Source: an uncultured Alphaproteobacteria bacterium | Lineage (GTDB): Bacteria; Pseudomonadota; Alphaproteobacteria; UBA6615 | Assembly (NCBI GenBank): GCA_943787445.1 | Contig: CALSML010000001.1 | Coordinates: 121,408-185,407, forward strand | Reading direction: 5' to 3' | DNA length: 64,000 nt | In this document: positions 13,017 to 41,226 of the stretch, piece after piece | How positions within the stretch are numbered: position 1 is the first letter of the stretch | Layout: each line of letters begins with the position of its first letter | Program-made: the position numbers and the translations under genes | The notes under the pieces: model-generated | The model's input: only the letters and a program-made list of their open reading frames with translations | The model's database searches: none | Told to the model about the DNA's origin: nothing

Positions 13017-14252
13017 TTAGTGCCGGTGGCCGGAAAGAACCGCTTCGAGGGTGTCCACAACCCGGTCGACCTCGGCCAGGGTGAGTGATTCGAACAGGGG
13101 CAGGCTGAGGCAGGTGTCGTAATAGGCGCTGGCGCCCGGGAATTCGGTATCGCCATAGCGGTGCCGATAATAGGGCTGCCACGGCACCGGTATGTAGTGC
13201 ACCTGACTCCCGACTCCCTGTTCACGCAGGGCGGTCATAACCTCGGCCCGGCTTGTGCCTGCTGCTGCGAAATCGATCCGGACGACCTGCAGATGCCAGG
13301 AAGGGCTGCATCCCTTCACCATATCCAGGGACTGAACCAGCGGTGCGAGGGGTGCTATTTTTTCGGCATAGCGCGCCACAAGCGCGCGCCGCTGCGCGAC
13401 AATATCGGGCAGGCGTTTCAGCTGACTGGTGCCCAGAGCGCATTGCAGATCACTGACCCGGTAATTGAGGCCGGGTTCGGCCATCTCGTAATACCAGGGG
13501 TTCACCGCGCCATCGGCCGCGTGGGCAAGGGCTTCATTTGTGAGCTGCGCCGGGTCGCGGGTCATGCCGTGATTGCGATAGCGGCGCAGCTTCTCGGCCA
13601 GATCGGCGTCACGGGTGGTGATGGCGCCGCCTTCTGCGGTGGTGATGGTTTTGACCGGGTGGAAGGAGAAGGTGGTCATGTCCGCATGGTCATTGCCGCC
13701 CACGTGGTGGTGACCCGCCGCGGAGTCGTAGGTGGTGCCGAGCGCGTGGCAGCCATCTTCGATCACACGAAGGTCATGGGTGCAGGCGAAGTCTGCGAGA
13801 TCGGCCGGGGCGGCACACTGGCCGGCGAAATAGACCGGCATCACCCCTGCGACGCGGTTGTCGTCCGCCCGCGCATGGGCGGCTTCGGCATGTTCGGCCA
13901 GCATCTGGCCGCTCTTGGGGTCGATATCCGCAAATACCACTTCGGCGCCCACCAGCCGGGCGGCATTGGCCGCGGCGAGGAAGGTGTTGGCGGGAACGAT
14001 CACCCTATCCCTCGGCCCAATACCTGCGGCCAGCAATGCTAGATGAAGGGCTGCCGTGCCGTTGCTGCAGGCAATGGCATGTTCGGCCCCTGTGACGTCG
14101 CGTAGCGCGGCTTCAAAGGCATCAACAGCGGGACCCGTGGTCAGCCAGTCGCCGCGCAGCACGGCAACCACGGCATCGATATCCGCCTGATCGACGGACT
14201 GCCGTCCATAGGGCAGGAAGCGCCGGTCTGATTGCGGGTCGGGTGTTGTCAT
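13017..14252 (-). CDS. pseC: PseC-like PLP-dependent sugar 4-aminotransferase
   Basis: 411 residues, DegT/DnrJ/EryC1/StrS family. The opening LPYGRQSVDQADIDAVVAVL with DWLTTGP closely follows PseC. The PLP lysine lies in TFSFHPVKTITTAEGG near residue 190, and the C-terminus has VHYIPVPWQPYYR and the LSLPLF segment of PseC. It would aminate C4 of the UDP-4-keto-6-deoxy-L-altrosamine made by PseB, using glutamate. PseB is encoded about 26 kb away (40213-41226) rather than adjacent. A 33 nt gap separates it from the preceding dehydrogenase gene. Confidence 0.85.
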   Translation of the reverse strand: MTTPDPQSDRRFLPYGRQSVDQADIDAVVAVLRGDWLTTGPAVDAFEAALRDVTGAEHAIACSNGTAALHLALLAAGIGPRDRVIVPANTFLAAANAARLVGAEVVFADIDPKSGQMLAEHAEAAHARADDNRVAGVMPVYFAGQCAAPADLADFACTHDLRVIEDGCHALGTTYDSAAGHHHVGGNDHADMTTFSFHPVKTITTAEGGAITTRDADLAEKLRRYRNHGMTRDPAQLTNEALAHAADGAVNPWYYEMAEPGLNYRVSDLQCALGTSQLKRLPDIVAQRRALVARYAEKIAPLAPLVQSLDMVKGCSPSWHLQVVRIDFAAAGTSRAEVMTALREQGVGSQVHYIPVPWQPYYRHRYGDTEFPGASAYYDTCLSLPLFESLTLAEVDRVVDTLEAVLSGHRH

Positions 14253-20198: not shown

Positions 20199-21296
20199 TC
20201 AGCTCTTGCGCCGGAAACAGACATCGCTGGCCGGGCGCACATGGATCACCTCGCCGGTGGATGTCCGGGGCAGCAGGGACCGGGCGCTGCGGGTCTGCAG
20301 ACGTCCGGCAAGTTCGTGGTCGGGCAGCAGCCCGGCATAGTCATCGGTCTTGATGCTGACCTCTGTTTTGCGTTCGTCGAGGGCGCAGATGTAGATGTAG
20401 CGCGCCTTCCATCTGGTGAAATAGGACAGATAGGTTTCCACCGTGTCCTTGCGCATTTCGCCGAAGCCGGAATTGTGGGCCAGACCCACCCCGTCGAGTT
20501 CAAGGTGATCAATCTGCCAGGGGGCGATCAGGAAGATGCGGCCCTCTTTGGCTTTCAGCAGGGACGGATCGGCCTTGATCTCGGCATAGGTCGTGACCCG
20601 GTCACCGAAGATCGCCTGCAGCACCTGCTGCAGCACATAGAGCTGGGGCGGAATGTCGATCAGATAGACATTCAGATCGGTTTTGAGCTTGGCCAGAACT
20701 TCGACAAAAAGCCCGGCTCCGGGGCCCACCTCCACGTAGCTGTCGATCGTGTCGAAATCGATATGCTCGCGCATGTCCAGATAGCGCAGGAATGACAGCA
20801 GGAAATTCGTCGTATAGGGGCGTCCATCCATCTCCAGCGCATCCGAGGGTGCGCCCCGGACATTGGCTTCGATGCCGCTGAGTTCGTTGTCCGTGTCGCG
20901 GGCGCGGCACAGGGCTTCCAGCTGGATCAGAAACATGTTGCGCAGGCGCAGCTCGTCGGCCGCGCGCTTGGCCTGCCGCCCATAGTAGTTGATGCCCGGC
21001 CCGAAGCGCAGCTTCTGGGAGACCTTGTGCAGGAAGGCATGGGATAGGACAGACTGGCTGGCCTGCACCTCGTCGATATGGGGCCACCAGCTGCCGCCAC
21101 CGAAATTTGCCAGCGCTTTGCCCACCGGCTCGAAGGTGCGGAAGGTGTTCAGGTCGTTGGTGCGCAGCCAGTCCAGCGTCGCCTTCTGGTTGGCGGCCCA
21201 ATAGGGGCCGGAACCCAGATCACCGTCATAGGCGGCGAGATCGTCCATCATCTCGTCCAGCGCTGCCGGATTGTTCACTATCTTGTTTTCGCTCAC
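20199..21296 (-). CDS. putative sugar O-methyltransferase
   Basis: 365 residues from GTG 21296, chosen because a GAGGT Shine-Dalgarno lies just upstream and longer starts run into the preceding gene. Features: YVEVGPGAGLFVEVLAKLK near residue 190 as SAM motif I, VYLIDIPPQLYVLQQVLQAIFG after it, and HNSGFGEMRKDTVETYLSYF. This matches a family annotated as putative sugar O-methyltransferases in O-antigen and capsule loci. It would methylate a sugar hydroxyl during or after polymer assembly. Substrate unknown. Confidence 0.75.
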   Translation of the reverse strand: MSENKIVNNPAALDEMMDDLAAYDGDLGSGPYWAANQKATLDWLRTNDLNTFRTFEPVGKALANFGGGSWWPHIDEVQASQSVLSHAFLHKVSQKLRFGPGINYYGRQAKRAADELRLRNMFLIQLEALCRARDTDNELSGIEANVRGAPSDALEMDGRPYTTNFLLSFLRYLDMREHIDFDTIDSYVEVGPGAGLFVEVLAKLKTDLNVYLIDIPPQLYVLQQVLQAIFGDRVTTYAEIKADPSLLKAKEGRIFLIAPWQIDHLELDGVGLAHNSGFGEMRKDTVETYLSYFTRWKARYIYICALDERKTEVSIKTDDYAGLLPDHELAGRLQTRSARSLLPRTSTGEVIHVRPASDVCFRRKS

Positions 21297-21337
21297 ACCA
21301 ACCTCGTGACTATCTGCGTGTTTGGATTTCGCATGTG

Positions 21338-22582
21338 CTAGGCGCCGCCTTCGCTCGCCAGAATGTTCTCGACGACCGTCTGATAATGGGGAGGTGCCAC
21401 GTGGTACCCGGATTTGAAACTGAAGTTCGGGTGCAGCGGCTCGCGCTTCACCAGCCGCTTGAAGCGGATATCGTCCTTCCACTTCACGGCCGCAGTGGGC
21501 CAGTGGGAGCGCCGCGGGAAATTATGGGCGTGGATCGTGTCCATGATCGCATTTGCGCTGCGCAGCACGGCCGAGCCTTCATGGAACCAGTCGTGAACCG
21601 TATCGAGATGTTCGTCGATGGAATTCATCTGTGGCACATCCGGTGGTTCGCCGTTCAGCATCTCCAGCAGTTCCTCGAAGGAGCCCGGCAGCATGGCCAG
21701 TGTCTCGGACATGGCGGCCAGAGGTTCATCGGTGCGTCCCGACCCTTCGGTGATGCGCGCAATGTTCAGCAGTGGCACCTTCAGAAGATAGGCTTCCAGA
21801 AAGCTCGTCGAGGACGGCATCATGATGACGCGCTGGCGCGATGCCCAGTCGACGAAGTCGAGGGAGGCGTCGATCTCGATCTTCGGTGAAATATGTTCGC
21901 GTACGCAGTCATAGCCTTCCGGCGCTTCGAGCGGATGGGGCCGGATGCTGATCGGGATTTCGGTGTTCTCGGTCAGGAAGCGAACGACCTTGGCCACGAG
22001 TGCGAAGCTTTCGGCCTGCTTGATCACCGGCAGCAGGTTTTCTTCCTTTATCAGGGCAAAGATCGTCGGTCGGCCGTCAAAATAGTTCAGCTGGTGGAAC
22101 CGGCCTGTCACCCCGACGCCGGTGCGGGTCGAGGCGTCCTGCAGGTCCGGATTGTATTTGATCAGGTCGAGGCGCGGATTGCCGCACAGGAAGACCTTCC
22201 CCTCGTGATTCTGCTTGGGCATCAGTTCTTCGAACCAGGGCAGCATGCGCCGGCCCCAGACCAGAACCCGGTCGAGCTGTTCGTAGCGCTCCGGATTGCG
22301 GCTCAGATCCAGCACATAGCTGGTCTCCTTGCTCTGTGCGCCTTCCCCATGCAGGCAGATCAGTGCGGCTTCGGGCGCGCAGCGCTTGACCACATCAATC
22401 TGGGAATTGGTGTTGATCACCACGGCATGGGGGCGCCAGTGGGTCAGGATGTCCTGAAAGTTGCGCGAGCTCGCGACCAGAACCTCGCAGCCCTTCGCTT
22501 CGAGGACACGTGCCAGAACGATAGCGATGCCCACATCGCGCCGGAGAGTGAAGGCGCGGATTACAACCCTGTATTTGCTCAT
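21338..22582 (-). CDS. surface carbohydrate biosynthesis protein (GT-B-like)
   Basis: 414 residues. Motifs: an N-terminal Rossmann-like half with VVIRAFTLRRDVGIAIVLA and ICLHGEGAQ, then FLCGNPRLDLIKYNP near residue 150, and a C-terminal half with ISIRPHPLEAPEGYD and MMPSSTSFLEAYLLKVPLLNI. The pattern resembles the 'surface carbohydrate biosynthesis protein' group and CDP-glycerol transferase-like proteins, often next to nonulosonic acid genes. A nonulosonate transferase role is an inference. It lies 19 nt downstream of the GNAT gene. Confidence 0.65.
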   Translation of the reverse strand: MSKYRVVIRAFTLRRDVGIAIVLARVLEAKGCEVLVASSRNFQDILTHWRPHAVVINTNSQIDVVKRCAPEAALICLHGEGAQSKETSYVLDLSRNPERYEQLDRVLVWGRRMLPWFEELMPKQNHEGKVFLCGNPRLDLIKYNPDLQDASTRTGVGVTGRFHQLNYFDGRPTIFALIKEENLLPVIKQAESFALVAKVVRFLTENTEIPISIRPHPLEAPEGYDCVREHISPKIEIDASLDFVDWASRQRVIMMPSSTSFLEAYLLKVPLLNIARITEGSGRTDEPLAAMSETLAMLPGSFEELLEMLNGEPPDVPQMNSIDEHLDTVHDWFHEGSAVLRSANAIMDTIHAHNFPRRSHWPTAAVKWKDDIRFKRLVKREPLHPNFSFKSGYHVAPPHYQTVVENILASEGGA

Positions 22583-23482: not shown

Positions 23483-23976
23483 GGCAGGTTCCTGGAGGTG
23501 CTCTCCGCCCCGGGGCTCTCACCGGTGTTGTGATACAGGCACACACCATCTTCGGCTGCCTGCAGCTGATAGCCGGTGCGTTCAAAGATGCGGCGCGACG
23601 CGTGGTTGTCTTCCCGGACGGTTGCAACAAGGCGATGAACGCCCAGAGCTGTGAAGGCGAGTGTGTTCGCCGCGGCCAGAATGGCCTGTCCGATTCCCTG
23701 ACCCCGATGGTCCGGGCTGACTGTGATGCTGACCTCGTATTCGCCCTCGGCGAAGGTGTCGAGGCGGACCGTGCCAACCGGCATATTCCCGTTTTCGGCA
23801 ATCAGAGGCGTGCGGGCGTCATCGGCCAGCGCATGGGCAAACCAGTTGATATGGTCGTCCCGTGTCACCGGCTCCGGGGTCAGGGACATGGCGATGGTCA
23901 CCGGGTCGTTGCGCCAGGCCAGCAAGAGATCGCTGTCGCCGGTTGTGGCATGGCGCAGTGTCACCGGCGCGCTCAA
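23479..23976 (-). CDS. PseH-like GNAT aminosugar N-acetyltransferase
   Basis: 165 residues from TTG 23976. The start is inferred from the TTGA overlap with the formyltransferase stop and an AGGG Shine-Dalgarno six bases upstream; a GTG at 23964 is the alternative. The opening LRHATTGDSDLLLAWRNDP with VTRDDHINWFAHAL is the pattern seen in PseH-type acetyltransferases. The CoA loop is VSPDHRGQGIGQAIL. It would acetylate the 4-amino group made by PseC, the step before PseG, or add another acyl group to a related sugar. It sits directly upstream of the ACP gene. Confidence 0.75.
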   Translation of the reverse strand: MSAPVTLRHATTGDSDLLLAWRNDPVTIAMSLTPEPVTRDDHINWFAHALADDARTPLIAENGNMPVGTVRLDTFAEGEYEVSITVSPDHRGQGIGQAILAAANTLAFTALGVHRLVATVREDNHASRRIFERTGYQLQAAEDGVCLYHNTGESPGAESTSRNLP

Positions 23977-24665
23977 GCGGCACCCTGGTTCAGGCGCTGG
24001 CGGGCGATTTCTAATTTGTCCTCCGGGATCGGTTGCCAGTAGTGACCGGCATCCGGGTCCTGCACGGTTAGGATGTTTGCCGGATCGTCGCCGGCGTCTT
24101 CCAGCAGGGTCAGGGCCGTGATCAGCACCCGGGCGCAATGGGCATAGAGATTGGCGCGCAGGTCGAAATAGTCCCAGTTGTCGGCGATGTCGTATCGGCC
24201 CTCAAAGATGATCGGTCCGGTATCAATCCCCGCATCGATGATATGGGCGGTCGCGTAGATATCGTCCTCATTGTAGAGCGCCCATTCCAGACAGGTGTTG
24301 CCCTTGTAGGCTGGCAGTCGTCCGGGATGTACATTGACGAAACCGATGCGCGGGGTTTCCAGCATGGCGGGTTTCAGAATGCCGATCCCGCCCTGAATGG
24401 CGATGTCGATCTCTGCAGCCCGCAGGCTGTCCCACAAGTCGTCCTCCGTCAGGGAGTCGTAGTGGGGAATGTTCAGCGCGGCGTCCGGCGCGGGTGGATT
24501 CCAGCGACCATCGGTTCGGTCCCGTTCGCGCGCGATCGAGGAATCCGACATCCGTCCTACTGAGGCAATCAGGTCCGGCGTCATGCCGGCGGATTGCAGC
24601 GCGTGCAGATATTCGCGACCGACAAAATTGTTGGCCTGAAACAGGAGGGCCGTGCGCAGGGGCAT
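23973..24665 (-). CDS. formyltransferase-family protein (aminosugar N-formyltransferase candidate)
   Basis: 230 residues. The C-terminal part carries FVNVHPGRLPAYKGNTCLEWALYN near residue 125 and AHIIDAGIDTGPII, the N10-formyltetrahydrofolate hydrolase/transferase core with the HPGxLPxYxG motif and the later Asp. The catalytic N-x-H-x-D arrangement is recognisable (N-V-H plus D-x-G-x-D-T-G). It would formylate the amino group of a nucleotide-linked aminosugar. It lacks the larger C-terminal OB domain of Fmt, as aminosugar formyltransferases often do. Five nt separate it from the amidotransferase gene. Confidence 0.8.
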   Translation of the reverse strand: MPLRTALLFQANNFVGREYLHALQSAGMTPDLIASVGRMSDSSIARERDRTDGRWNPPAPDAALNIPHYDSLTEDDLWDSLRAAEIDIAIQGGIGILKPAMLETPRIGFVNVHPGRLPAYKGNTCLEWALYNEDDIYATAHIIDAGIDTGPIIFEGRYDIADNWDYFDLRANLYAHCARVLITALTLLEDAGDDPANILTVQDPDAGHYWQPIPEDKLEIARQRLNQGAA

Positions 24666-24670
24666 TGGGT

Positions 24671-25834
24671 CTAGTTGTGGTCCCAGATATTGTCTTTGAT
24701 CCAGTCGCCATATTCATTCTGGACCCAGACCCGCAGATCGCGGAACCCGTCGGCGATGGTCTCCATCTCGTTGCGGTCCATTCCCACATAGTCGAGCCAG
24801 CGGGTGATGTCGCCGGGCACCACATGGTCGTACTGGCGCACGAGTTCGATACCCTCGGCACGGGTCAGAATGCCGTTCCGGATATCCCGGCAGGCATGGT
24901 CGGTGACGCGGCCATATCCGAACTTCACATACTTCATGTAGTCGTGAATGCCGTTGTCGTGGATGTTGTTCAGATTGGAATCCCGGGCATAGGTCCGGTC
25001 GAAGGGGATCGGGTTGGTCTCGAACCCGTACATGTCGATCATCGTCTGGGTGTGTTCGGCCTGGTTCCAGCCGAAGAAGTTGGAAATGAACACCCCGCGC
25101 ACATCGACCCGCTCGATCTCGTCATCGGTCGGGTATTTGGCCCAGAGCAAATCCTTTTCTTCCAGACCCTCCACGCCGACGAAGTCGTACCAGTCATAGC
25201 CGCGTAGCAGGTGTTCCACGCGATACTTGGCGGTGTATTCGACCATGTCCTTGTAGGAATGCATGCCGCCCATATTCATGAAGCCATGCTCGCCCCAGAT
25301 CACCAGCGAGATGTTGAACTTCACCGCGATTTGAACCGGGACGGCATTGATGCCCATATGGGCATGCATGTCCGGGTCACCCATTTTCTTCAGCCCGGCG
25401 CGATTGAGTTTCTTCAGGGTCTCGACGCTGGCGGTGAAGTGATAATGGTCGCAGCCGAAGACATCGCGCATGCGCTGGATGTTCCGCATGCCGACATCGG
25501 TGTGGTTGTTTTCCCCATAGGTCACCAGCAGCGGGTTCATCCCGTAAACCTTGGTGAGCAGGTGAATCTGGTAGAAGCTGTCCTTGCCGCCGCTGACCGG
25601 GATCAGACAGTCGTAATTGCTGCCATCGGGTGAGCGGTAGTCATCACACAGATCGCGGAACAGTTCCTCCCGTGCGGCCCAGTTGACGGTCGCCTGCTCT
25701 TCATGGGTGCGACATCCGCTGCACATACCTTCCTCATCGAAGACAATGGCGGCAGCCGAGGCGGCGGGATAGACGCAACGTGTGCAGTACTGCATGCGCG
25801 GCGGCGTGACGCGTGGTTCGAACGTACCGGTCAT
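24671..25834 (-). CDS. N-acetyl sugar amidotransferase (PseA/WbpG-like)
   Basis: 387 residues. A zinc-type N-terminus has CTRCVYP and CSGCRTHEEQ (two CxxC pairs). The ATP-PPi loop is LIPVSGGKDSFYQIHLL near residue 80, followed by GENNHTDVGMRNI and VIWGEHGFMN. This is the family that converts an acetamido sugar into an acetamidino sugar with ammonia supplied by HisH/HisF-like partners. Both partners are encoded immediately upstream. The amidino acceptor could be a nonulosonic acid or a diamino-uronic acid; the sequence does not decide. Confidence 0.88.
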   Translation of the reverse strand: MTGTFEPRVTPPRMQYCTRCVYPAASAAAIVFDEEGMCSGCRTHEEQATVNWAAREELFRDLCDDYRSPDGSNYDCLIPVSGGKDSFYQIHLLTKVYGMNPLLVTYGENNHTDVGMRNIQRMRDVFGCDHYHFTASVETLKKLNRAGLKKMGDPDMHAHMGINAVPVQIAVKFNISLVIWGEHGFMNMGGMHSYKDMVEYTAKYRVEHLLRGYDWYDFVGVEGLEEKDLLWAKYPTDDEIERVDVRGVFISNFFGWNQAEHTQTMIDMYGFETNPIPFDRTYARDSNLNNIHDNGIHDYMKYVKFGYGRVTDHACRDIRNGILTRAEGIELVRQYDHVVPGDITRWLDYVGMDRNEMETIADGFRDLRVWVQNEYGDWIKDNIWDHN

Positions 25835-25852: not shown

Positions 25853-26653
25853 TCAGATGTCATTGGGGTAACGCACGTTATAGCCGCGCCGGTGCAGTTG
25901 CTTCTTGGCGCGCTTGTAGGCGTTCTCGGTGAAATGAAAAATATTGCCCGCGGCCACGGCGCTGGCGTGACCCTTGTCGATCCCGGGCCGGAAATGCTCG
26001 AAGGTTCCCACACCGCCACAGGCGATCACGGGGATTCTGACGGCCGCCGCCATCGCGCTGATGATGTCCGTGTCATAGCCTTCGGCGCTGCCGTCCCGGT
26101 CGATGGAATTCAGCATGATCTCACCGGCCCCGCGCTCCTCGGCCTGTCGTGCATAGGCCAGCGGGTCGTCATCCACACGGGTGCGCCCCTGATCCACATA
26201 CATGGCGTGTCCGTCGCCCTCGCGATGCACGTCGATGCCCACGACCATGGCCTGGCTGCCGTATTTCTCCGCCACTTCGGTCACCAGTCCGGGCTGGTGA
26301 TAGGCCTGTGAATTGATCAGTACCTTGTCGGCGCCGTTGTGAATGAAACTGTCCACATCCTCGATGGATTTGATGCGCCCGCCAAAGGTGAGCGGCATGA
26401 AGGCACTTTTGGAAATCTGTCGCAGGATGCCGATCACGTCATCGGCGCCCTTGAGTTTCATGTCGTCGCGCCGCAGGTCGTAGTCGCCGTCCCGGGTGAT
26501 GTCGATATAGACCAGTTCGTCCGCCAGCCAGTCATTGAGCCGTTCCAGCTGATTGATCGGGTTGCCGATCACCTTGAACTCACGAAACCCTTCGCTACGC
26601 ACGATCAGGCCGTTCATCAGATACAGCACCGGGATGATCCGTGTTTTCAGCAT
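25853..26653 (-). CDS. HisF-like ammonia-channel subunit of the amidotransferase system
   Basis: 266 residues from ATG 26653 (MLKTRIIPVLYLMNG), which replaces the more usual HisF start of KRIIPCLDV. The (beta/alpha)8 barrel retains LTFGGRIKSIEDVDSFI, GADKVLINSQAY, and IDRDGSAEGYD, so the phosphate-binding loops are recognisable. The first catalytic aspartate position (CLD in histidine biosynthesis) reads VLY here, suggesting that it no longer makes imidazole glycerol phosphate. With HisH next door it would form a dedicated ammonia-producing pair for the PseA/WbpG-like enzyme. Confidence 0.85.
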   Translation of the reverse strand: MLKTRIIPVLYLMNGLIVRSEGFREFKVIGNPINQLERLNDWLADELVYIDITRDGDYDLRRDDMKLKGADDVIGILRQISKSAFMPLTFGGRIKSIEDVDSFIHNGADKVLINSQAYHQPGLVTEVAEKYGSQAMVVGIDVHREGDGHAMYVDQGRTRVDDDPLAYARQAEERGAGEIMLNSIDRDGSAEGYDTDIISAMAAAVRIPVIACGGVGTFEHFRPGIDKGHASAVAAGNIFHFTENAYKRAKKQLHRRGYNVRYPNDI

Positions 26654-26663
26654 CGGCCTCGGG

Positions 26664-27275
26664 TCAGACCTTCGCGAAATTGTCGAGGACCGCAAGGCCC
26701 ACGCGTGCGCTTTTTTCCGGATGGAACTGCGCGCCGAAAATATGGTCGCGCTGCACCGCGGCTGTAACGGGGCCGCCATAGTCGACCGTGGCCACGATGT
26801 CTGAGGGATCGGTCGGCAACAGCTGATAGGAGTGCACGAAGTAACAGCTGGTATCGCCTTCGATATTGGCAAACAGCTGTGCGTTGTCCTTCAGCACCAG
26901 TTCGTTCCAGCCGATCTGGGGCAGGCGCAGATCCGATGATCCCCGTGGAATGATTTCGACCCGACCGGAAATCCAGCCGAGCCCGGCGCAGTCACCGAAC
27001 TCCGTTCCGGTCTCGGCCAGCAACTGCATGCCCAGACAAATCCCGAGCACCGGTTTGCCCTTCTCGCGCACCTGGTCGTTCAGGGCATCGAGAAACCCGC
27101 TCGTCGAGAGCCGCGTCATGGCGGCCGGGAAGGCTCCCACGCCGGGCAGAATGATCCGATCCGCCTTGTCCAGATCTTCGGGCGCGCTGGCGATCAGCGG
27201 CGTGTGCCCGAGATGTTCGAGCGCGTTGCACACCGAGCCGATATTGCCCATGCCGAAGCTGACGACGCCGATCAC
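26664..27275 (-). CDS. HisH-like glutaminase subunit of the amidotransferase system
   Basis: 203 residues. The glutaminase nucleophile lies in PVLGICLGMQLL near residue 80, and the His/Glu pair in FGAQFHPEKS near residue 183, so a complete class I triad is present. The N-terminus MIGVVSFGMGNIGSVCNALEHLG and the PGVGAFPAAM oxyanion region match HisH. It would hydrolyse glutamine and channel ammonia through the HisF-like partner. Its start overlaps the stop of the tandem amidohydrolase gene by ATGA. Confidence 0.88.
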   Translation of the reverse strand: MIGVVSFGMGNIGSVCNALEHLGHTPLIASAPEDLDKADRIILPGVGAFPAAMTRLSTSGFLDALNDQVREKGKPVLGICLGMQLLAETGTEFGDCAGLGWISGRVEIIPRGSSDLRLPQIGWNELVLKDNAQLFANIEGDTSCYFVHSYQLLPTDPSDIVATVDYGGPVTAAVQRDHIFGAQFHPEKSARVGLAVLDNFAKV

Positions 27276-28780
27276 GCCGATACGGCCTCGGCATCACGCA
27301 GACGCGGGAAGGCATCCAGGGCATTCTCCTGGAAGATTTTCTGCAGCGCGGTCTCCGGCAGATCTGCGCTGGCGAGTTTGCCCAGCGTCCAGGCCGGGTT
27401 CATCAGCTGGCCGTCGCAGGAGAAGATGATGCGGTCCTCGCCGACCCGCGCGAGCATGCCCTTGATATCGGCGTCCTGTCGGTCGGCGGTGCTGGTGGCA
27501 ATGTCGAACCAGACATTCTTCAGATCGGCAAAATCCCAGTAGCGCCAGGTGGCATGGGCCGCGATGAAATTGATGTGGGGCTTAAGTTGCGCCAGACGGT
27601 CCATGCCCGGCAGATGGGCCATGATCGGCCAGCCGGACATGTTGTCGAGATGAGCGAAGATTTCGAGATAGCTCGGATCGTCCAGATCCTTGCCGTAGAA
27701 GTCCTGAATCGTCTTGATGCCGACAAAGCGCGGGTTGTCCCGGTATTTCTCGATTTCGCCGATCGAGGTCTCGATCTCCAGCGGATTGACGACGATCAGT
27801 CCGCGCGCACGGGGCTCGGCTTCGACAAAGGCCTTGGTTTCGGCATTGCCGGTGACGATGTCGTGGTTTAGAGCGCGAATCGAAGAGGAATTCGCGATCT
27901 GGTAGTTGAAAACATCGAAATCCTGCGCGATGGCTTCGAAGCTGATGCGTGGTTCGATGATGTTCCAGCCGCTGGTGTGCCAGTGAGTGTCGATTTTCGG
28001 CACGTCACGATATGTCTGCCAAAGGCGCATCTCCGCGGCGGGTTCCGGGTCAGCATTAAGGCCGAGTGCCTTTGACAGGGTGCCGCTTTGAATCATTTGG
28101 CGATCCGCATCCGAAATGCGCGCGCCTTCCAGCATGAAATAGGACGCGCCTTCTGCGACCAGTGGCGAGCCCGACGCTAGAAACAGGCGATCAGCGCCCA
28201 GCCGTTCGACCAGGCGTTCGATGCCGCCGCTCTGGGTGATCGTCGAAATGTCGAAGCAGAGATTCGGATGATCCTGAGCGACCGCGATAATGTCGGGGAT
28301 GTTGTTGTAGCCGCTGCCGCGCATCCAGCGGATCAGCACCTTGCCGCCCGCCGGTGCAACATGACGTGCCACGGCGGCGAGGTCCTGCCGGTTCCAGATC
28401 CCGGCCAGAATGGGGAAGTCGAGTTTGGCGCAATCCTTTGCGAAAACCTCCACCACATAATCCGACCAGGTCCAGTTCTGGAAAGTCGGGAACAGGGCGG
28501 CGGCCAGAAAGGGCCCTTTGGAAATCTGCGTTAGGCTATCCACCCCGGCGTCATAGCCGAGCATGTTGATGGTGGCGGTTGGCAGCAACCGGCCGTCCGA
28601 GGCTGCGCAGAATTCAGCCGTCAGTTCGTTGCCTTCCCGCTCGTCGAAATAGATCGCCTTGAAGGATGTCGCGAGCGCACGTGTGACACCGAACCGGTCC
28701 AGCCGTGCAAGAACTTCTGCCGGATCGCTGCCGAGCCCGCTGCTCGGGTCCTTGTCGAGAAAGATACCGCCGTCGATCAT
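27272..28780 (-). CDS. tandem amidohydrolase-2 protein with degenerate N-terminal half
   Basis: 502 residues, apparently two PF04909-like TIM barrels in tandem. The C-terminal copy begins at PKIDTHWHTSGWN (His266, His268) and keeps His389 (IMAHLPG), His409 (AAHAT) and Asp456 (FSCDGQ), a full metal set. The N-terminal copy begins MIDGGIFLDKDP, where the HxH is replaced by G-x-F. Its later positions read ILAGIWN and FLASGSP instead of H and D, so it looks non-catalytic. It shares one base with the preceding aminotransferase stop and overlaps the HisH start by four. A lyase or hydrolase step in sugar modification is an inference. Confidence 0.7.
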   Translation of the reverse strand: MIDGGIFLDKDPSSGLGSDPAEVLARLDRFGVTRALATSFKAIYFDEREGNELTAEFCAASDGRLLPTATINMLGYDAGVDSLTQISKGPFLAAALFPTFQNWTWSDYVVEVFAKDCAKLDFPILAGIWNRQDLAAVARHVAPAGGKVLIRWMRGSGYNNIPDIIAVAQDHPNLCFDISTITQSGGIERLVERLGADRLFLASGSPLVAEGASYFMLEGARISDADRQMIQSGTLSKALGLNADPEPAAEMRLWQTYRDVPKIDTHWHTSGWNIIEPRISFEAIAQDFDVFNYQIANSSSIRALNHDIVTGNAETKAFVEAEPRARGLIVVNPLEIETSIGEIEKYRDNPRFVGIKTIQDFYGKDLDDPSYLEIFAHLDNMSGWPIMAHLPGMDRLAQLKPHINFIAAHATWRYWDFADLKNVWFDIATSTADRQDADIKGMLARVGEDRIIFSCDGQLMNPAWTLGKLASADLPETALQKIFQENALDAFPRLRDAEAVSA

Positions 28781-30054
28781 CAGGCTGTTTCCTGTTGGGC
28801 CATGGCACGCAGGGGGTCGAGATTGTCGAAAACCTTGGTGAAGGCCGCGATGACGTCATCCAGATCCGCAGCGCTCATCGGGGGGCGCATGAATTCGTGG
28901 ATCAGGAGCCGCTGATTGGCGCGTTCGGTCATGGGGCACAGACCCGCCGGATAGGCGCCGGGCGTGGTCTGGAAAATCGGCAGGCTGTAGGCCGGCTGCA
29001 CATAGCCGGCCCGGACCAGCGCCCCCTCGCCTTCGCGCAGCTCGGTGAGCGGAAGCTCGGCCTTCAGGGCATCGGCCATGATCCCGACCGGCACGCCGGT
29101 GCCGTCCGGGTCGTAGCCCAGCGCATGTACATAGTAGACATGATCGCCGGCGGGTTTGGTTGTCGGCATGGTCAGCCCTGCGATGCCCGACAGGCCGGCT
29201 TCGAGATGCGCGACATTCGACTTGCGGGTTGCAATCAGCTCGGGCCCCTTGGCCAGCTGGCAGCGACCGATCGCGGCTTCGATCTCGCCCATGCGGTAGT
29301 TGAAGCCGATCATGTTGGTCTGGTCGGTGACGCCCTTTCCGGCGACAACGGATTCCGCATGATTGCGGATCAGCTGGCAGCGCTCGGCGAAGTGATCATC
29401 ATGCGTCGTGATCATCCCGCCTTCGCCGGTGTGGATGTGCTTGTGATAGTTGAAGCTGAAAATCCCCATATGGCCCAGCGTGCCGACCGGGCGCCCCTTG
29501 TAGGTGGCGAACGGGCACTGGGCGCAATCCTCGATCACGATTAGATCATGGGCCTTGGCGATTTCCATGATCGGATCCATATCGGCGGCCATGCCGAAGA
29601 TATGAACGATGATGATGGCCTTGGTCTTCGCGGTGATCTTCGAACGGATGCTTTCGGGATCGAGGCAGTAGGTCGCCGGATCGATATCGGCAAAGACCGG
29701 CGTGGCTTTGTAGACCATCGGTGCCACACAGGAGGCCGACATCGTATAGGGCGAGACAATCACTTCGTCCCCCGCACCGATGCCTGCGGCGCCGCAGGCT
29801 GCATAGAGCCCGCTGGTGGCCGAATTGACCGAGATCGCATGGGTCGCGCCACAGGAGTCTGCCCATTCACGCTCGAAGGCCTGTACTTCCGGGCCGCCAT
29901 AGAAATCCTTGTGCCAGCCGCCGATGAACCGGGAGAGCACGCCGCTATCCATGACCTTGGCGACGGCGTCTTTTTCGGGTTCACCGATCACCTTGTAGGC
30001 CGGAAAGGGATCCGTGCGGACGGGCGTGCCGCCGGTGATCGCGAGTTTGCTCAT
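28780..30054 (-). CDS. DegT/DnrJ/EryC1/StrS PLP-dependent sugar aminotransferase
   Basis: 424 residues. The GGTPVRTDPFP opening and VNSATSGLYAACGAAGIGAGDEVIVSPYT match the AHBA-synthase/StrS-like branch. The PLP lysine lies in SFNYHKHIHTGEGGMI near residue 220, and VIEDCAQCP carries the cofactor aspartate. It is clearly different from the PseC-like protein at 13017. It overlaps the Gfo/Idh oxidoreductase by ATGA; such pairs convert an oxidised sugar position into an amine. Which carbon is aminated cannot be told. Confidence 0.88.
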   Translation of the reverse strand: MSKLAITGGTPVRTDPFPAYKVIGEPEKDAVAKVMDSGVLSRFIGGWHKDFYGGPEVQAFEREWADSCGATHAISVNSATSGLYAACGAAGIGAGDEVIVSPYTMSASCVAPMVYKATPVFADIDPATYCLDPESIRSKITAKTKAIIIVHIFGMAADMDPIMEIAKAHDLIVIEDCAQCPFATYKGRPVGTLGHMGIFSFNYHKHIHTGEGGMITTHDDHFAERCQLIRNHAESVVAGKGVTDQTNMIGFNYRMGEIEAAIGRCQLAKGPELIATRKSNVAHLEAGLSGIAGLTMPTTKPAGDHVYYVHALGYDPDGTGVPVGIMADALKAELPLTELREGEGALVRAGYVQPAYSLPIFQTTPGAYPAGLCPMTERANQRLLIHEFMRPPMSAADLDDVIAAFTKVFDNLDPLRAMAQQETA

Positions 30055-31031
30055 GATGTCGCTCCCATAAGGCGCAGTTGTGAAATCTGCTGACAGAGAC
30101 GCTCGACGGAAATGGCGGTCTCGGCGGTGCTCGCCAGTGCTGCGCCTTGTGTCACTGCGCTGTGGATGTTGTCGACGGCACCGGACAGTGCCCGGTCGAG
30201 GGTGGTTTCGGTGACCGTGCCTTCGTCCAGATGGGTGCGGCCGGGAAACAGGCGATGATCCGTGGTGCGTCGTCGCCGAACACGAAAGCCGGAATCCTCG
30301 ATCCGGACGACACCGCCCGCGCAGGTGATCTCGGCTTCGAACCGGGCGTAGTCCCGGCTGTCGCTGCCGATCAGATAGACCGGGATATCCTTCGGACCGG
30401 TCAGCATCGCATCGATGGTCGGGTCCGCGGGCGAGAAGTCTTCGTTGCGGCGCAGTGCCTGCTGCGGTGTCAGTGGTCCGATCAGAAACTGGATCAGGTC
30501 GAGCATGTGGCTACCCGTGTGGAACAGTCCCTTGGCATAGAACGCCGTGACCGAACGCAGCGCGCCCCAGTCTCCGGCAGCCAGCTCGTCGCGCAGGGTG
30601 GTCATCTCGCTGTCCCAGCGCCGCAGATAGTTGACGCAGATGGCCTTGCCCGCGGCTTCGTAAGCCTTGTGCAATGCTGCCGAGTGCGCCGGGTCGCCGG
30701 TCATCGGCTTCTCGCAGAAGACGATCCGGGCCGGGCTGTCGAGCAGTTGGGTGAGAACCACCTCATGAGTGTCGGTGGGTGTGCAGATGCTCGCCACATC
30801 GAACCCGTCTTGGTCCTTGAGACATGCATCAAGATTTCCGAACCCCGACCTGACGTCCCACCTGTCCCTGAACGCCTGCCGCCGCGCGGCATCCGGCTCG
30901 ACACAGGCGACCACGTCAAACCGGCCATCGGCCCGATAGGCCCCGGCATGGCTGAGCACCGTTGCGCCATCACTCGCCTCGTCATAACCGCCCGCGATGT
31001 CCCCGCAGCCGATGATCACCGTGGTGAGCAT
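30051..31031 (-). CDS. Gfo/Idh/MocA-family oxidoreductase
   Basis: 326 residues from ATG 31031 (MLTTVIIGCGDIAGGYD), five bases after the preceding stop. The NAD(P)-binding GCGDIAGG loop opens the Rossmann domain; ASICTPTDTHEVVL and VFCEKPMTGD (EKP motif, near residue 100) are the family hallmarks. The C-terminal beta sheet domain is complete. It would oxidise a hydroxyl to a ketone on a nucleotide sugar or nonulosonate precursor before amination by the following DegT protein. It is not an obvious WbpB orthologue. Confidence 0.85.
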   Translation of the reverse strand: MLTTVIIGCGDIAGGYDEASDGATVLSHAGAYRADGRFDVVACVEPDAARRQAFRDRWDVRSGFGNLDACLKDQDGFDVASICTPTDTHEVVLTQLLDSPARIVFCEKPMTGDPAHSAALHKAYEAAGKAICVNYLRRWDSEMTTLRDELAAGDWGALRSVTAFYAKGLFHTGSHMLDLIQFLIGPLTPQQALRRNEDFSPADPTIDAMLTGPKDIPVYLIGSDSRDYARFEAEITCAGGVVRIEDSGFRVRRRRTTDHRLFPGRTHLDEGTVTETTLDRALSGAVDNIHSAVTQGAALASTAETAISVERLCQQISQLRLMGATS

Positions 31032-31035
31032 TGCG

Positions 31036-31746
31036 TCAGGTCGCGTCATCGTCATCCAGAAATGCGAGCATATCGGACAGATCAAATTCCGGGTTTCCGG
31101 GATAGAGCGCTTCGAAGACCCGGCGGATGACCGCCAGGTCATCCGGCGTGTCGAGGGTCAGCCGTGTTTCGGGCGCATGATGATGGGGTGGCGCCGTCAC
31201 CGCCGCGATCCTGAAGAGATCGGGATTTTTGTAGATGAACAGCGAGACATGCTCCCGGTCATCGGGCGCGTCGGTACGCCCGGCCACATCGGCCAGAATG
31301 TCGGTGGCGAAAATCTGAGTATCCATGCCAACCGGATAGGTGCGCGGCACCAGCGCGTTCGACACATAATCGGCTTCGCCGGCCAGATAGAAATCAATGA
31401 CCTTTGACACGATCGCCGGGTCGATCAGCGGGCAGTCGCCGGTGGTTTCGACAATCAGGTCGACATCGTTGGCCTGCGCGGCGGAAAGAACCCGGTCCAG
31501 CACGTCGTGCTCCGAACCGCGATAGCAGCCAACCCCGAGTTCTTCGGTGAGTGCGACCACCGGATCATCCGTCGCGTTGACCGTGGTTGCGACGATAATG
31601 TCATCCAGTTGGGGCACCCGCTGCAGCCGCGCGATCATATGCGCGAGCATGGGCTGGCCGGCAGCCTCCATCAGCACCTTGCCGGGCAGTCGTGTCGAGG
31701 TCATGCGCGCCTCGATGGTGGCGTAGATGCGTGGTGCGGCGCTCAT
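31036..31746 (-). CDS. SpsF-like cytidylyltransferase-fold protein (copy 1)
   Basis: 236 residues. IYATIEARMTSTRLPGKVL at the N-terminus is the ARMxSxRLPGK nucleotide-binding loop of SpsF-like proteins, related to CMP-KDO and CMP-NeuAc synthetases. Further motifs are GSEHDVLDRVL and ETTGDCPLIDP (the DCP metal-binding region). It is coupled by ATGA to PseI. A paralogue on the other side of PseI has the same motifs. Either could activate the PseI product; SpsF proteins lack a well-established reaction. Confidence 0.8.
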   Translation of the reverse strand: MSAAPRIYATIEARMTSTRLPGKVLMEAAGQPMLAHMIARLQRVPQLDDIIVATTVNATDDPVVALTEELGVGCYRGSEHDVLDRVLSAAQANDVDLIVETTGDCPLIDPAIVSKVIDFYLAGEADYVSNALVPRTYPVGMDTQIFATDILADVAGRTDAPDDREHVSLFIYKNPDLFRIAAVTAPPHHHAPETRLTLDTPDDLAVIRRVFEALYPGNPEFDLSDMLAFLDDDDAT

Positions 31747-32804
31747 TCAACCAGATCCCAGGAGACGGCGGTGCCACGCACGATATCTGTCTTGGCACGC
31801 CGGCCGAGAATTTGGGGCAGGTGTTTGGGTGCAAGACCAAAGCCCGGTCGGATCGAGCGCACATGAGCATCGGTGATGATTTCACCGGCCGCGATATCTT
31901 CAACCACATACAGCGAGCGACGGAAGATGGCATTGCCCGCTTCGCTTTCCTTGCGTTCGTAGTCGACGGTGCCCAGTGCCTCCCAGGCATCCCGGCAACT
32001 GGAGACCAGAAGTGCCAGTTCGTCGGATTCGAGTGAGAAAGAGGAATCCGGCCCGCCATCCGCGCGGGAAAGCGTCACGTGCTTTTCGATCAATGTGGCA
32101 CCCAGACTGACGGCGGCCACCGAGACGGCTGTGCCAAGCGTGTGGTCGGATAATCCGACGATCGCATCAAAACGTTCAGCGATATCGGCGATGGTGCGCA
32201 GATTCGAATCTCCGGGCGGGGCGGGATATCCGCTCACGCAGTGCAGCAGAACAATGTCTTTGCATCCGGCATCGCGCGCTGCAGTGACCGCTTCACCGAT
32301 TTCGTCCCGGTTGGCCATGCCGGTTGAAATGATCATCGGTTTGCCGGTGGCCGCGACCCGCGCGATCAGGGGAAGGTCCACGGCTTCGAAGGAGGCAATC
32401 TTGTAGGCCGGTACGTTCAGGGTTTCGAGGAAGTCGACTGCAGTCCCGTCGAAGGGAGCACTGAACATGGTGATGCCCACATCGCGGGCCTTGTCGAACA
32501 GGGCCTGGTGCCAGGCCCAGGGCGTGTGGGCCTCGTCATAAAGTTCATGCAGGCTGCGCCCATCCCAGAGGCCGCCTGTAATCCGGAATTCCGGAGAATC
32601 GTGATCGATGGTGATGGTGTCAGCCGTGTAGGTCTGCAGCTTGACCGCGTCCGCGCCGGCATCCCTGGCCATCTCGATCAGAGTGAGCGCGCGATCCAGA
32701 TCACCATTGTGATTGCCCGACAGCTCCGCAACGATATATGGCGGATGATCCGGTCCGATGGGGCGGCCGGCGATCTCGAAGGCTTTTCTCTCAGGCGTGG
32801 TCAT
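31743..32804 (-). CDS. pseI: pseudaminic acid synthase (PseI), full length with SAF domain
   Basis: 353 residues, the usual length. The TIM barrel has YIVAELSGNHNGDLDRAL, LQTYTADTITID, ISTGMANRDEI, LHCVSGYPAPP and IEKHVTLSRADGGPDSSFSLE. The last is the PseI-type loop, where NeuB has a different segment. The C-terminal SAF domain (RRSLYVVEDIAAGEIITDAHVRSIRP) is intact. It condenses phosphoenolpyruvate with the 6-deoxy-di-N-acyl-altrose released by PseG. It overlaps SpsF-like genes on both sides by ATGA, forming a compact three-gene unit. Confidence 0.92.
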   Translation of the reverse strand: MTTPERKAFEIAGRPIGPDHPPYIVAELSGNHNGDLDRALTLIEMARDAGADAVKLQTYTADTITIDHDSPEFRITGGLWDGRSLHELYDEAHTPWAWHQALFDKARDVGITMFSAPFDGTAVDFLETLNVPAYKIASFEAVDLPLIARVAATGKPMIISTGMANRDEIGEAVTAARDAGCKDIVLLHCVSGYPAPPGDSNLRTIADIAERFDAIVGLSDHTLGTAVSVAAVSLGATLIEKHVTLSRADGGPDSSFSLESDELALLVSSCRDAWEALGTVDYERKESEAGNAIFRRSLYVVEDIAAGEIITDAHVRSIRPGFGLAPKHLPQILGRRAKTDIVRGTAVSWDLVE

Positions 32805-33556
32805 GCTTCTGGCTTTGGGGGTGCGGCATGGGCGCTGTTGAGTGCGCGGATGGCCGGGTTGGCCGCAAGATAGGTCACCACATCCTCGGTCGTGAAGGCG
32901 GCGTTGGCCGGATAGAGAGCGTCGTAGACGCGGGTGATCACGTCGAGGTCTTCCGGGTAATCAACCGTCAGACGCAAATCGGCCTGGTTCGAATTGCCGG
33001 TATAGGAGCTTAGCGTGAAGCGATCGGGATGATTGTAGAGAAAGGGTGTCACGTGCTCGCGATCATAGGGGTCGTCGGTTTCCTGCCCGGCAGTCTCGAG
33101 CGCTTCGGACGTTATCGCTTCGACGTCCAGTCCATGGGGCCAGCTGCGTTCGAGCGTGTTGCTGGCATAGTCATAGTCACCGGTCAGCAGATGGTTGGTC
33201 AGTCCGTCGACCACACGCGGATCGGTCAGAGGACAATCCGCGGTCAGGCGCAGCACGATATCTGCCTTGCTGGCGGTCGCGGCTTCGACGAACCGTCCCA
33301 GAACATCATGGAGCGAACCGCGAAAACAGGTGACGCCGGATTGTGCACACAATTCCGCAATGGCGTCGTCATCGGCCTCTGTGCTTGTGGCGACAACAAT
33401 CTCGTCGACACGCTCTGCGCGCCGCAGCCGTTCGAGTTGTCGCAGAATCATCGGCTGCCCCATAACCGGCGCCAGGACTTTCCCCGGGAGCCGGGACGAC
33501 GACATGCGGGCCTGAACAATGGCCACGACTTTGAGTTGCGTACAGGATGCGCACAT
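32801..33556 (-). CDS. SpsF-like cytidylyltransferase-fold protein (copy 2)
   Basis: 251 residues. VVAIVQARMSSSRLPGKVL and RLTADCPLTDP mirror the first SpsF-like copy, with similar length and order of motifs (FRGSLHDVLGRF, YDREHVTPFLYNHPD). The MCASCTQ lead may be part of the coding sequence or a few codons too long. Two paralogues flanking one synthase suggest either a heteromeric activating enzyme or activation of two different nonulosonic acids. Six nt separate it from the preceding GT-B-like gene. Confidence 0.8.
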   Translation of the reverse strand: MCASCTQLKVVAIVQARMSSSRLPGKVLAPVMGQPMILRQLERLRRAERVDEIVVATSTEADDDAIAELCAQSGVTCFRGSLHDVLGRFVEAATASKADIVLRLTADCPLTDPRVVDGLTNHLLTGDYDYASNTLERSWPHGLDVEAITSEALETAGQETDDPYDREHVTPFLYNHPDRFTLSSYTGNSNQADLRLTVDYPEDLDVITRVYDALYPANAAFTTEDVVTYLAANPAIRALNSAHAAPPKPEA

Positions 33557-33562
33557 GGCAGA

Positions 33563-34678
33563 TCAGGCGCGCCCGGCAATCCGGTCGAGCGCTGCGACAA
33601 TCTGAGTGCTGGCCGGTGTGTCATCGGAGGTGTCGAAAGCAGATGGGTCATCCGCAGATCTGTTCAGCACATCGGGCAGCAGCACCCGCAATGTGCCACG
33701 ATCTGTGGCGCAGGGGGTCAGCCCCAGCAATACGGTGGGAATGAGGCTCTTCTGATTTTCAGTCGGCAGGATCGACAGGGTGTTCAAACCCGCCAGTGCG
33801 GCTTCGACAAGCAGGCTGGTTGACAGCCCCACAACCAGATCGGCGGCGAAGAGAAGTGGTAGCGGTTTCCCGCCCTCCGAGATCGCGTCGAACCGGTCCA
33901 TATAGGGCGCGTAGTTGGAGGCCGGGTCTTTCGGGTGCGCACGAAAGACCAGATACGGAGTGCGATCCAATGTGTCGATCGCATCGAGGAATTCTTCGAG
34001 GACGATCTCGGTTCGGCGTTCGCTCACGCCCCGTCCAGTCAGCCTGTAGTCGGACGACCGCCGCTTGATATCCATACCCAAGCCGTCGGAACCCTCGCCA
34101 AGAAATATGATGACGGGTCGGTCCACAGGGACATCCCCCAGTGTATCTGCACGATGTGAAGCGATGGGTTGTTTGCGAAGCTGTGCGGCTTCTGTCCGGA
34201 CGATGTCGTAGTAGGGGTGTCCGGTCACGGCAGTATGGGTAGATGGCTGGCCCAGTGCGCGGAACAGGTCCGCTGTGTGGTTGTCGGGCAATATCAGCCA
34301 GTCGGTTACATGGGTCAGCGGTTCGGATGTGTGTCCGCGGAATCGATGCTGGGCATTTGCCGGGCTATCGACAAACCCGATGGAGGGAATGTCCTGATCC
34401 CGTGCGGCCCGGGTCAGTGCGAAGGCATAGGAGTCGGGGTTTTCTGCTGTACCGACCATCAGAATATCCGGTGTCCGATCTTTCAGCTGGTTTGCGGCGT
34501 CCGTACCGGACGGAATGTCGTTTGCGGCAATGTTGCGGTCGGACAGAAATTTTGCCGCAAGGCCAGTCGCACAGAGTTCGATCTCCCATCCGCTTGCCGC
34601 CAGATCGTTCAGCGCTGGTGCAATGAAATTCGCGGCACCCGGATCTTCGACAAATATCAGGATACGTCCCTGCGCCAT
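33563..34678 (-). CDS. GT-B-fold-like protein of unknown specificity
   Basis: 371 residues. It starts RILIFVEDPGAANFIAPALNDL, continues with a VTGHPYYDIV segment near residue 160, and ends with VFRAHPKDPASNYAPYM and LVVGLSTSLLVEAALAGLNTLSI. The two-half architecture with HPKD and a Ser/Thr-rich phosphate loop late in the chain resembles GT-B transferases and UDP-sugar hydrolases used in nonulosonate and capsule assembly. No defined family was recognised. It lies between SpsF-like copy 2 and a PhyH oxygenase. Confidence 0.55.
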   Translation of the reverse strand: MAQGRILIFVEDPGAANFIAPALNDLAASGWEIELCATGLAAKFLSDRNIAANDIPSGTDAANQLKDRTPDILMVGTAENPDSYAFALTRAARDQDIPSIGFVDSPANAQHRFRGHTSEPLTHVTDWLILPDNHTADLFRALGQPSTHTAVTGHPYYDIVRTEAAQLRKQPIASHRADTLGDVPVDRPVIIFLGEGSDGLGMDIKRRSSDYRLTGRGVSERRTEIVLEEFLDAIDTLDRTPYLVFRAHPKDPASNYAPYMDRFDAISEGGKPLPLLFAADLVVGLSTSLLVEAALAGLNTLSILPTENQKSLIPTVLLGLTPCATDRGTLRVLLPDVLNRSADDPSAFDTSDDTPASTQIVAALDRIAGRA

Positions 34679-40212: not shown

Positions 40213-41226
40213 TCAGATCTGGGCGAGAAGTTTGACCAGTCCGTCGCCGTCGAGCCATTCCTCGTTCGTGTTGCTCGCATAGTGGAAATCGGACGGTGCT
40301 ACTTGTGCGCCTTCTGCTTCGTGCGCGGCCTGAACGCTCGGGTCCTGGGCCGGGCAGATGACATAGCGCCCATCGCGTTCCACGACCGCGGCCGTGTCAT
40401 CTTCGGAGATCAGCAATTCGTGCAATTTCTCGCCGGGGCGGATGCCAACGATCTCACGCGGGATACCCGGTGCGAGGGCTTCCATCATGTCGGCGACTGT
40501 CATACTGGGAACCTTCGGGACGAAGATTTCTCCGCCCTTCATGATCTTTGCGCTCGACAGAACGAAATCAATTCCCTGAACCAGGGTGATCCAGAAACGG
40601 GTCATGCGTTCATCGGTCAGGGGAATGCTCTCGCACCCCCCTTCAACCAGACGGCGGATCAGGGGCACGATGCTGCCGCGTGACCCGAGCACATTGCCGT
40701 AGCGCACAACGCTGAACCGGGTCGGTGAGTCACCGGCCAGGGTGTTGGCTGCAACGAAGAGTTTGTCCGAAGCCAGCTTGCTGGCTCCGTAGATGTTGAT
40801 CGGGTTGACCGCCTTGTCCGTCGACAGGGCAATCACCTTCTCAACGCCCACATCGATAGCGGCGCTGATGACGTTTTCCGCGCCGTAGACATTGGTGCGG
40901 ATGCACTCGAACGGATTGTATTCGGCGGCGGGCACATGTTTGAGGGCGGCGGCATGAACTACGCAGTCAACGCCGCGCATGGCCATGCGAAGCCGATCTA
41001 CGTCGCGCACATCACCCAGGAAGTAACGCAGCTCTTCGCGATCCGCGAACACTGCTGATTGCTGCATGTCGTATTGCTTGTGCTCGTCGCGCGACAGGAT
41101 GATCAGCTTGCGCAGCTTGTAGCGCTTGAGTAGCGTCTCGGAGAACTGGCGGCCAAAGGAACCGGTACCGCCTGTGATCAGGACGGTTTTTCCATTGAGA
41201 TCGATCGTGCTGTTGTTATCGAACAT
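40213..41226 (-). CDS. pseB: UDP-GlcNAc 4,6-dehydratase, inverting (PseB)
   Basis: 337 residues. VLITGGTGSFGRQFSETLL is the NAD(P) loop, followed by LSRDEHKQYDMQQ, the PseB-specific stretch. HAAALKHVPAAEYNPFE and STDKAVNPINIYGASK supply the modified SDR catalytic residues. PseB converts UDP-GlcNAc to the 4-keto-6-deoxy L-arabino sugar that PseC aminates. A clear AGGAAG Shine-Dalgarno precedes ATG 41226. A weak promoter (GTGACA, 17 bp, TATTCG on the minus strand) can be seen in the 145-bp gap upstream. It is physically separated from pseC, pseG and pseI. Confidence 0.92.
   Translation of the reverse strand: MFDNNSTIDLNGKTVLITGGTGSFGRQFSETLLKRYKLRKLIILSRDEHKQYDMQQSAVFADREELRYFLGDVRDVDRLRMAMRGVDCVVHAAALKHVPAAEYNPFECIRTNVYGAENVISAAIDVGVEKVIALSTDKAVNPINIYGASKLASDKLFVAANTLAGDSPTRFSVVRYGNVLGSRGSIVPLIRRLVEGGCESIPLTDERMTRFWITLVQGIDFVLSSAKIMKGGEIFVPKVPSMTVADMMEALAPGIPREIVGIRPGEKLHELLISEDDTAAVVERDGRYVICPAQDPSVQAAHEAEGAQVAPSDFHYASNTNEEWLDGDGLVKLLAQI

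Follow-up and report, generated by a model that had tools for sequence, protein, structure and literature searches.

The tandem amidohydrolase gene and its neighbours

The window, i.e., the whole stretch of 64,000 nucleotides that was analysed, carries on its minus strand a closely packed run of genes in which a tandem amidohydrolase, abbreviated AH hereafter for both the gene and the protein, sits between a DegT-family aminotransferase and a HisH-type glutaminase. In the order of their coordinates, the members of this run and the two parts of AH are as follows.

23973-24665, minus strand: formyltransferase-like protein (FMT; PF00551, 47.8 bits)
24671-25834, minus strand: WbuX/PseA-type N-acetyl sugar amidotransferase (TIGR03573, 341.1 bits, cut-off 203.2)
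25853-26653, minus strand: HisF/WbuZ-type partner (best model TIGR03572 WbuZ, 245.8 bits, below its cut-off of 299.7)
26664-27275, minus strand: HisH-type glutaminase (TIGR01855, 225.4 bits, cut-off 105.4)
27272-28780, minus strand: AH, tandem PF04909 amidohydrolase of 502 aa (open reading frame with ATG; PF04909 in two stretches; internal repeat)
27275-28012, minus strand: C-terminal live barrel of AH (L type), residues 257-502, with H266, H268, K356, H389, H409 and D456
28013-28780, minus strand: N-terminal dead barrel of AH (D type), residues 1-256, with D3-G-G and zero metal ligands
28780-30054, minus strand: DegT-family aminotransferase (PF01041, 290.6 bits)
30051-31142, minus strand: Gfo/Idh/MocA oxidoreductase (PF01408, 56.2 bits)
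31036-31746, minus strand: cytidylyltransferase CTPa of the DegT/Gfo set (PF02348, 95.5 bits)
31743-32804, minus strand: PseI-type pseudaminic acid synthase (TIGR03586, 508.2 bits, cut-off 340.25)
32801-33556, minus strand: second cytidylyltransferase, CTPb (PF02348, 122.5 bits)
33563-34678, minus strand: 371-aa protein unmatched in Pfam and NCBIfam, accompanying the DegT/Gfo/CTPa set

AH abuts both of its neighbours: its start shares one base (28780) with the stop of the DegT gene, and its end overlaps HisH by 4 bases (27272-27275), which bears out the coupling to HisH and to an aminotransferase that the original prediction had proposed. Directly downstream of AH lies a complete WbuX/HisH/HisF triad of three adjacent genes. 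The window further holds equivalogs of PseB (40213-41226) and of PseC (13017-14252) as well as a PseH-like acetyltransferase, so that a pseudaminic-type pathway is present. In the HisF of imidazole-glycerol-phosphate synthase, the catalytic Asp lies within CLDV-DG; the corresponding region of the window's HisF partner (25853-26653, minus strand) reads VLYLMNG, and this protein probably only passes ammonia, as WbuZ-type proteins should.

Four operon orthologues of AH are known, that of the window included. One of them (G399, from the window's family) is 86% identical to AH and has the same sequence as the copy at L001, while the other two (G093 at 42–43% and G765 at 41%) belong to one genus of another family, which was searched as another order, giving an identity of about 41–43% across orders. 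The same 4-base overlap between AH and HisH is found in all three, and the operon is conserved: in G093 and G765 the genes run CTPa-Gfo-DegT-(371-aa-type protein)-AH-HisH-HisF, with the 371-aa-type protein placed between DegT and AH, and are followed by WbuX and a formyltransferase. This recurrence of AH-HisH-HisF...WbuX-FMT downstream of cytidylyltransferase-Gfo-DegT, at 41–42% identity, upholds the link to sugar-nitrogen chemistry that had been drawn for AH. In G093 (L007 6744-11926), genes that are TRAP-transporter-like by eye separate HisF from WbuX; the triad is contiguous in the other genomes.

Two homologous barrels with different ligand columns

The sole Pfam assignment of AH is PF04909 (Amidohydro_2), which matches in two stretches with a score of 76.8 bits (cut-off 26.4), and its orthologues reach 88.7 and 90.8 bits with the same model. 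An NCBIfam search of AH yielded zero matches, and no family model names its reaction. When the two halves were compared as profiles, built from the four AH orthologues cut at residue 256, hhalign aligned the N-half with the C-half over 206 columns at E 4e-11, with a probability of 97% and an identity of 22%. The halves are thus homologous repeats, and the alignment, which had been suggested as a check on the two PF04909-like barrels read into the 502-residue protein, supports that reading.

In an alignment of 32 barrels, the ligand columns of the C-half hold H266, H268, K356, H389, H409 and D456; of these, K356 lies where strand 4 ends. The same columns of the N-half hold G, F, A, G, P and G, the placement of the strand-6 column being uncertain because of the nearby motif RWMRGSGY (residues 151-158 of the dead barrel), which is invariant across the four orthologues. 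The original prediction was therefore correct both in assigning His266, His268, His389, His409 and Asp456 to the second barrel, to which K356 has to be added, and in regarding the first as ligand-less (GxF, AG, SG). PF04909 is matched 17 times in the window genome, whose single-barrel PF04909 paralogues retain HxH, H409 and D456 and carry E, Q, I or R in the Lys column. In its fold and architecture, AH is very probably a fused pair of one live and one dead PF04909 barrel.

Both halves match the family that comprises, e.g., ACMSD, gamma-resorcylate decarboxylase and LigJ, and the C-half shares with its members the strand-1 HxH, the strand-5 and strand-6 His and the strand-8 Asp. Unlike these members, AH has two barrels per chain, the first ligand-less and the second with a strand-4 Lys, and it is without a close solved relative: in sequence, decarboxylases come closest, with no more than marginal E-values (4.5e-4 and weaker), and the weak matches by sequence or fold are gamma-resorcylate decarboxylase, ACMSD and LigJ. 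AlphaFold2 models of AH had a pLDDT of 38 (the sole homologues used being 86% identical) and of 45 (with the two halves aligned). For the second, low-confidence model, the top Foldseek matches were PF04909 enzymes, with a best E of 8.5e-3 and a TM-score near 0.25, none falling below E 1e-3.

In amidohydrolases, the alpha metal is ligated by HxH, and the beta metal by the strand-4 residue together with the His of strands 5 and 6. The C-barrel motif THWHT of the window is replaced by TLYNI in G093 and G765, i.e., HxH has given way to LxN, with K356, H389, H409, D456, T411-W412-R413 (TW-R) and TST all retained. Thus, the ligand set claimed for the second barrel stands as complete in the C-halves of the window and G399 and fails as an invariant, being incomplete in two of the four operon orthologues. 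A precedent is offered by the NagA of E. coli and V. cholerae, in which QXN replaces HXH and the site is mononuclear; moreover, a binuclear NagA mutated to QXN retained its activity (PMC6016474). By analogy, the LxN of G093 and G765 would resemble the QxN of this mononuclear deacetylase, being the same kind of change as in that amino-sugar amidohydrolase. Unlike AH, NagA is of the PF01979 type and has an extra beta-sandwich domain; the NagA family model gave no match to AH in NCBIfam, and Pfam gives PF04909 only. In light of the NagA precedent, the loss of HxH is compatible with activity and equally compatible with a non-catalytic protein, and it is the main uncertainty on catalysis by AH. Reading the loss as proof of a pseudoenzyme was dropped in view of the same precedent and the retention of K356, H389, H409 and D456. 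If the reading of AH preferred below is right, the LxN orthologues would constitute a natural test of how much loss of strand-1 metal ligands is tolerated.

The ligand-less barrel as a lineage

A protein search over plasmid records recovered haloarchaeal proteins of 541–571 aa in which one PF04909 half has the complete ligand set and the other lacks the ligands. Halomontanus P0001 has its dead half in front, like AH, and five other haloarchaeal proteins have it second, i.e., in the reverse order, while in Subdoligranulum (L095) and Nonomuraea (L099) the dead and live barrels are adjacent separate genes. As in AH, every live half of these eight further dead/live pairs shows H/H/K/H/H/D in the alignment of 32 barrels. 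The six ligand positions are lost in all 12 dead halves, bar one isolated H in L099_D. The pairs differ from AH in their identity to it, which is 22–28%, and in their gene contexts. They too have sugar-amine genes as neighbours, which speaks for the reading of AH preferred below: DegT lies directly downstream of the Nonomuraea pair, the Subdoligranulum pair is flanked by a gene of the glucosamine-6-phosphate-isomerase family and by one of Amidohydro_1, and several haloarchaeal pairs have DegT or Gfo nearby.

Outside its own orthologues, the dead half of the window shows its greatest similarity to dead halves of haloarchaea (E 3e-13 to 4e-10) and not to live barrels. In a maximum-likelihood tree of the 32 barrels, the 12 dead halves (those of Alphaproteobacteria, haloarchaea, Subdoligranulum and Nonomuraea) make up a single group against the 20 others with a support of 94/93, and in a tree with two further single barrels they do so against 22 with a support of 92/94. 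These values fall just short of the level that the program rates as strong, many of the branches are long, and a first quick tree had already shown the grouping before it was defined. The live halves were not recovered as a single clade, and a single clade was not rejected (p-AU 0.276). The unpaired ligand-poor barrel L102 fell outside the dead group, which speaks against the idea that lost ligands alone draw the dead barrels together; on Pseudosulfitobacter plasmids, this solitary PF04909 barrel (L102 4872-5720) has an AMP-binding protein on one side and an amidase on the other.

A comparison of the window with L001 gives a dN/dS of 0.08–0.11 for the dead half, which is thus maintained by purifying selection, and 0.05–0.07 for the live half, which is under purifying selection as well. 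As far as these sequences speak, the dead barrel is an old lineage and neither a private decay nor a local oddity, with relatives in four phyla, a spread that is based on the plasmid records and on two orders of Alphaproteobacteria. In four phyla or more, this old dead lineage occurs with an intact partner at its side, an arrangement observed for the alphaproteobacterial, haloarchaeal, Subdoligranulum and Nonomuraea pairs named above, which makes it probable that the dead and live barrels are a lasting working pair. A parallel might be struck with the dihydroorotase chain (pDHO) of Pseudomonas, which lacks the zinc ligands and is inactive, and which is nonetheless necessary for the activity of aspartate transcarbamoylase (PMC7053772). 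Like pDHO, the dead barrel of AH would be a ligand-less amidohydrolase barrel kept as an obligatory non-catalytic partner; unlike pDHO, whose partner is an unrelated transferase, it is paired with its own, presumably active, homologue.

Occurrence of the pair and its candidate roles

A scan of genome contigs for AH found one relative, the 86% copy, and the viral contigs searched held none. In a phylum sample of 398 genomes, AH was found in the window genome only, and among alphaproteobacterial genomes it was found in 2 of 385 by sequence search and in 2 of 359 by profile search, the window genome being counted in both. Literature searches, which covered few subscription papers, returned no report of such an amidohydrolase gene beside nonulosonate genes.

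The search for the same gene beside HisH/HisF/WbuX triads gave a divided answer: among the 22 such loci fetched from Alphaproteobacteria, AH orthologues are present in 4 and absent from 18. Further, AH occurs only with a WbuX at least 75% identical to that of the window, the WbuX of the other triad loci being at most 53% identical. Two loci without AH (L092 and L093) combine the triad with a DegT/Gfo/cytidylyltransferase set, and in L092 the triad is accompanied by a formyltransferase and DegT and yet AH is lacking, so that similar gene sets can dispense with the AH step. Of 11 alphaproteobacterial loci with the DegT/Gfo/CTPa set, 3 have AH and 8 do not. The idea of AH as a component of the amidination triad was rejected on the 18 loci without it, and the earlier placement of AH within the amidotransferase set as such finds no support; AH as a component of the DegT/Gfo/cytidylyltransferase set was likewise rejected on the 8. 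The triad (TIGR03573 and its partners) is complete beside AH, but AH is an addition to it. Its absence from most triad loci sets AH apart from ordinary amidination, and its association with only some of the triad and DegT/Gfo/CTPa loci suggests that AH marks one variant of the pathway.

The reading preferred here is that AH acts catalytically, hydrolysing an amino-sugar intermediate, and carries a non-catalytic twin; taken as a whole, this is a tentative proposal that stops somewhat short of being probable. Counting against it are the HxH loss in two of the four operon orthologues, the decarboxylases as nearest solved relatives and the similar gene sets that do without AH. One part of it is firmer: the C-barrel is likely to be catalytic in the window organism. 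It would bind metal via strands 1, 4, 5, 6 and 8 (HxH, K, H, H, D) and cleave an amide-like bond, most likely N-acyl, on an amine-bearing nonulosonate-type intermediate, the substrate being one on which the neighbouring DegT, HisH/HisF/WbuX and formyltransferase act. That AH performs N-deacylation specifically is doubtful; only the analogy with NagA and the amine-rich gene context lead to its being preferred over other chemistry. In the LxN clade, the metal site of strands 4, 5 and 6 together with the strand-8 Asp may suffice, as in the E. coli NagA with its QxN. The N-barrel would perform no chemistry and would occupy the position that a second subunit has in a dimer, forming a pseudo-dimer in which it probably shapes the active site or tethers partner proteins. 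A wider formulation, held a little more loosely than the preferred reading, is that ligand-less PF04909 barrels may be ancient dedicated non-catalytic partners of active PF04909 barrels, maintained as fused or neighbouring genes in archaea and in three or more bacterial phyla, with the AH pair contributing to amino-nonulosonate glycan synthesis an editing step not described before, either a deacylation or the hydrolysis of an amidine.

The C-barrel might alternatively be catalytic in another reaction, such as the opening of a lactone or lactam, the hydrolysis of an amidine to edit or undo what WbuX has made, or decarboxylation in the manner of ACMSD and gamma-resorcylate decarboxylase. PF04909 includes decarboxylases and hydratases, to which the weak matches to gamma-resorcylate decarboxylase, ACMSD and LigJ would conform, and AH is directly linked to HisH and HisF, and in three of the four genomes to WbuX as well; however, none of those matches is better than E 4.5e-4, the predicted fold is of poor quality, and the strand-4 Lys of the C-half is missing from the single-barrel paralogues of the window genome, making such chemistry unlikely. 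Lower still stands the probability that the whole of AH is non-catalytic, a scaffold or ammonia-routing partner linking DegT, HisH/HisF and WbuX. The precedent of the inactive pDHO chain, the translational coupling of AH to HisH in all four genomes and the absence of HxH from both barrels in G093 and G765 are in line with such a role. A pure scaffold, though, would have no need of K356, H389, H409, D456 and their surrounding motifs, which are invariant despite the loss of HxH; live halves elsewhere retain the full ligand set, and most triads do without AH altogether. Finally, AH might be a catabolic amidohydrolase that came to lie in a glycan island by chance and plays no part in the pathway. 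Such an origin would fit the rare and patchy occurrence of AH, whose source could be among the PF04909 proteins of the window genome. It is a very improbable account given the strong purifying selection on both halves and the position beside HisH, with gene overlap, that is common to two orders at 41–42% identity.

If the preferred reading of a hydrolase with a non-catalytic twin is true, a widespread enzyme family hides an obligatory pair of active and inactive barrels under the annotation 'amidohydrolase family protein', and one copy of this pair marks an unassigned step of nonulosonate glycan synthesis.

Some further features of these gene sets might be recorded. The cytidylyltransferase-Gfo-DegT set (28780-31746 in the window, minus strand) is a mobile unit that occurs with or without the amidination triad; at L086, where PseI and the triad went undetected, it adjoins a SIS-domain-like gene. 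In many loci of Alphaproteobacteria, a 371-aa-type protein, at 26–43% identity, again accompanies the DegT/Gfo/cytidylyltransferase set. Just downstream of the cluster in the window, 20202-22582 (minus strand) encodes a NanM-type sugar O-methyltransferase (TIGR04371, above cut-off) and a protein of a surface-polysaccharide family (TIGR04396, below cut-off). At L052 (4608-11204), the genes run WbuX-HisH-HisF-WbuX-HisH-HisF-WbuX, i.e., a tandem run of two HisH/HisF pairs with three WbuX.
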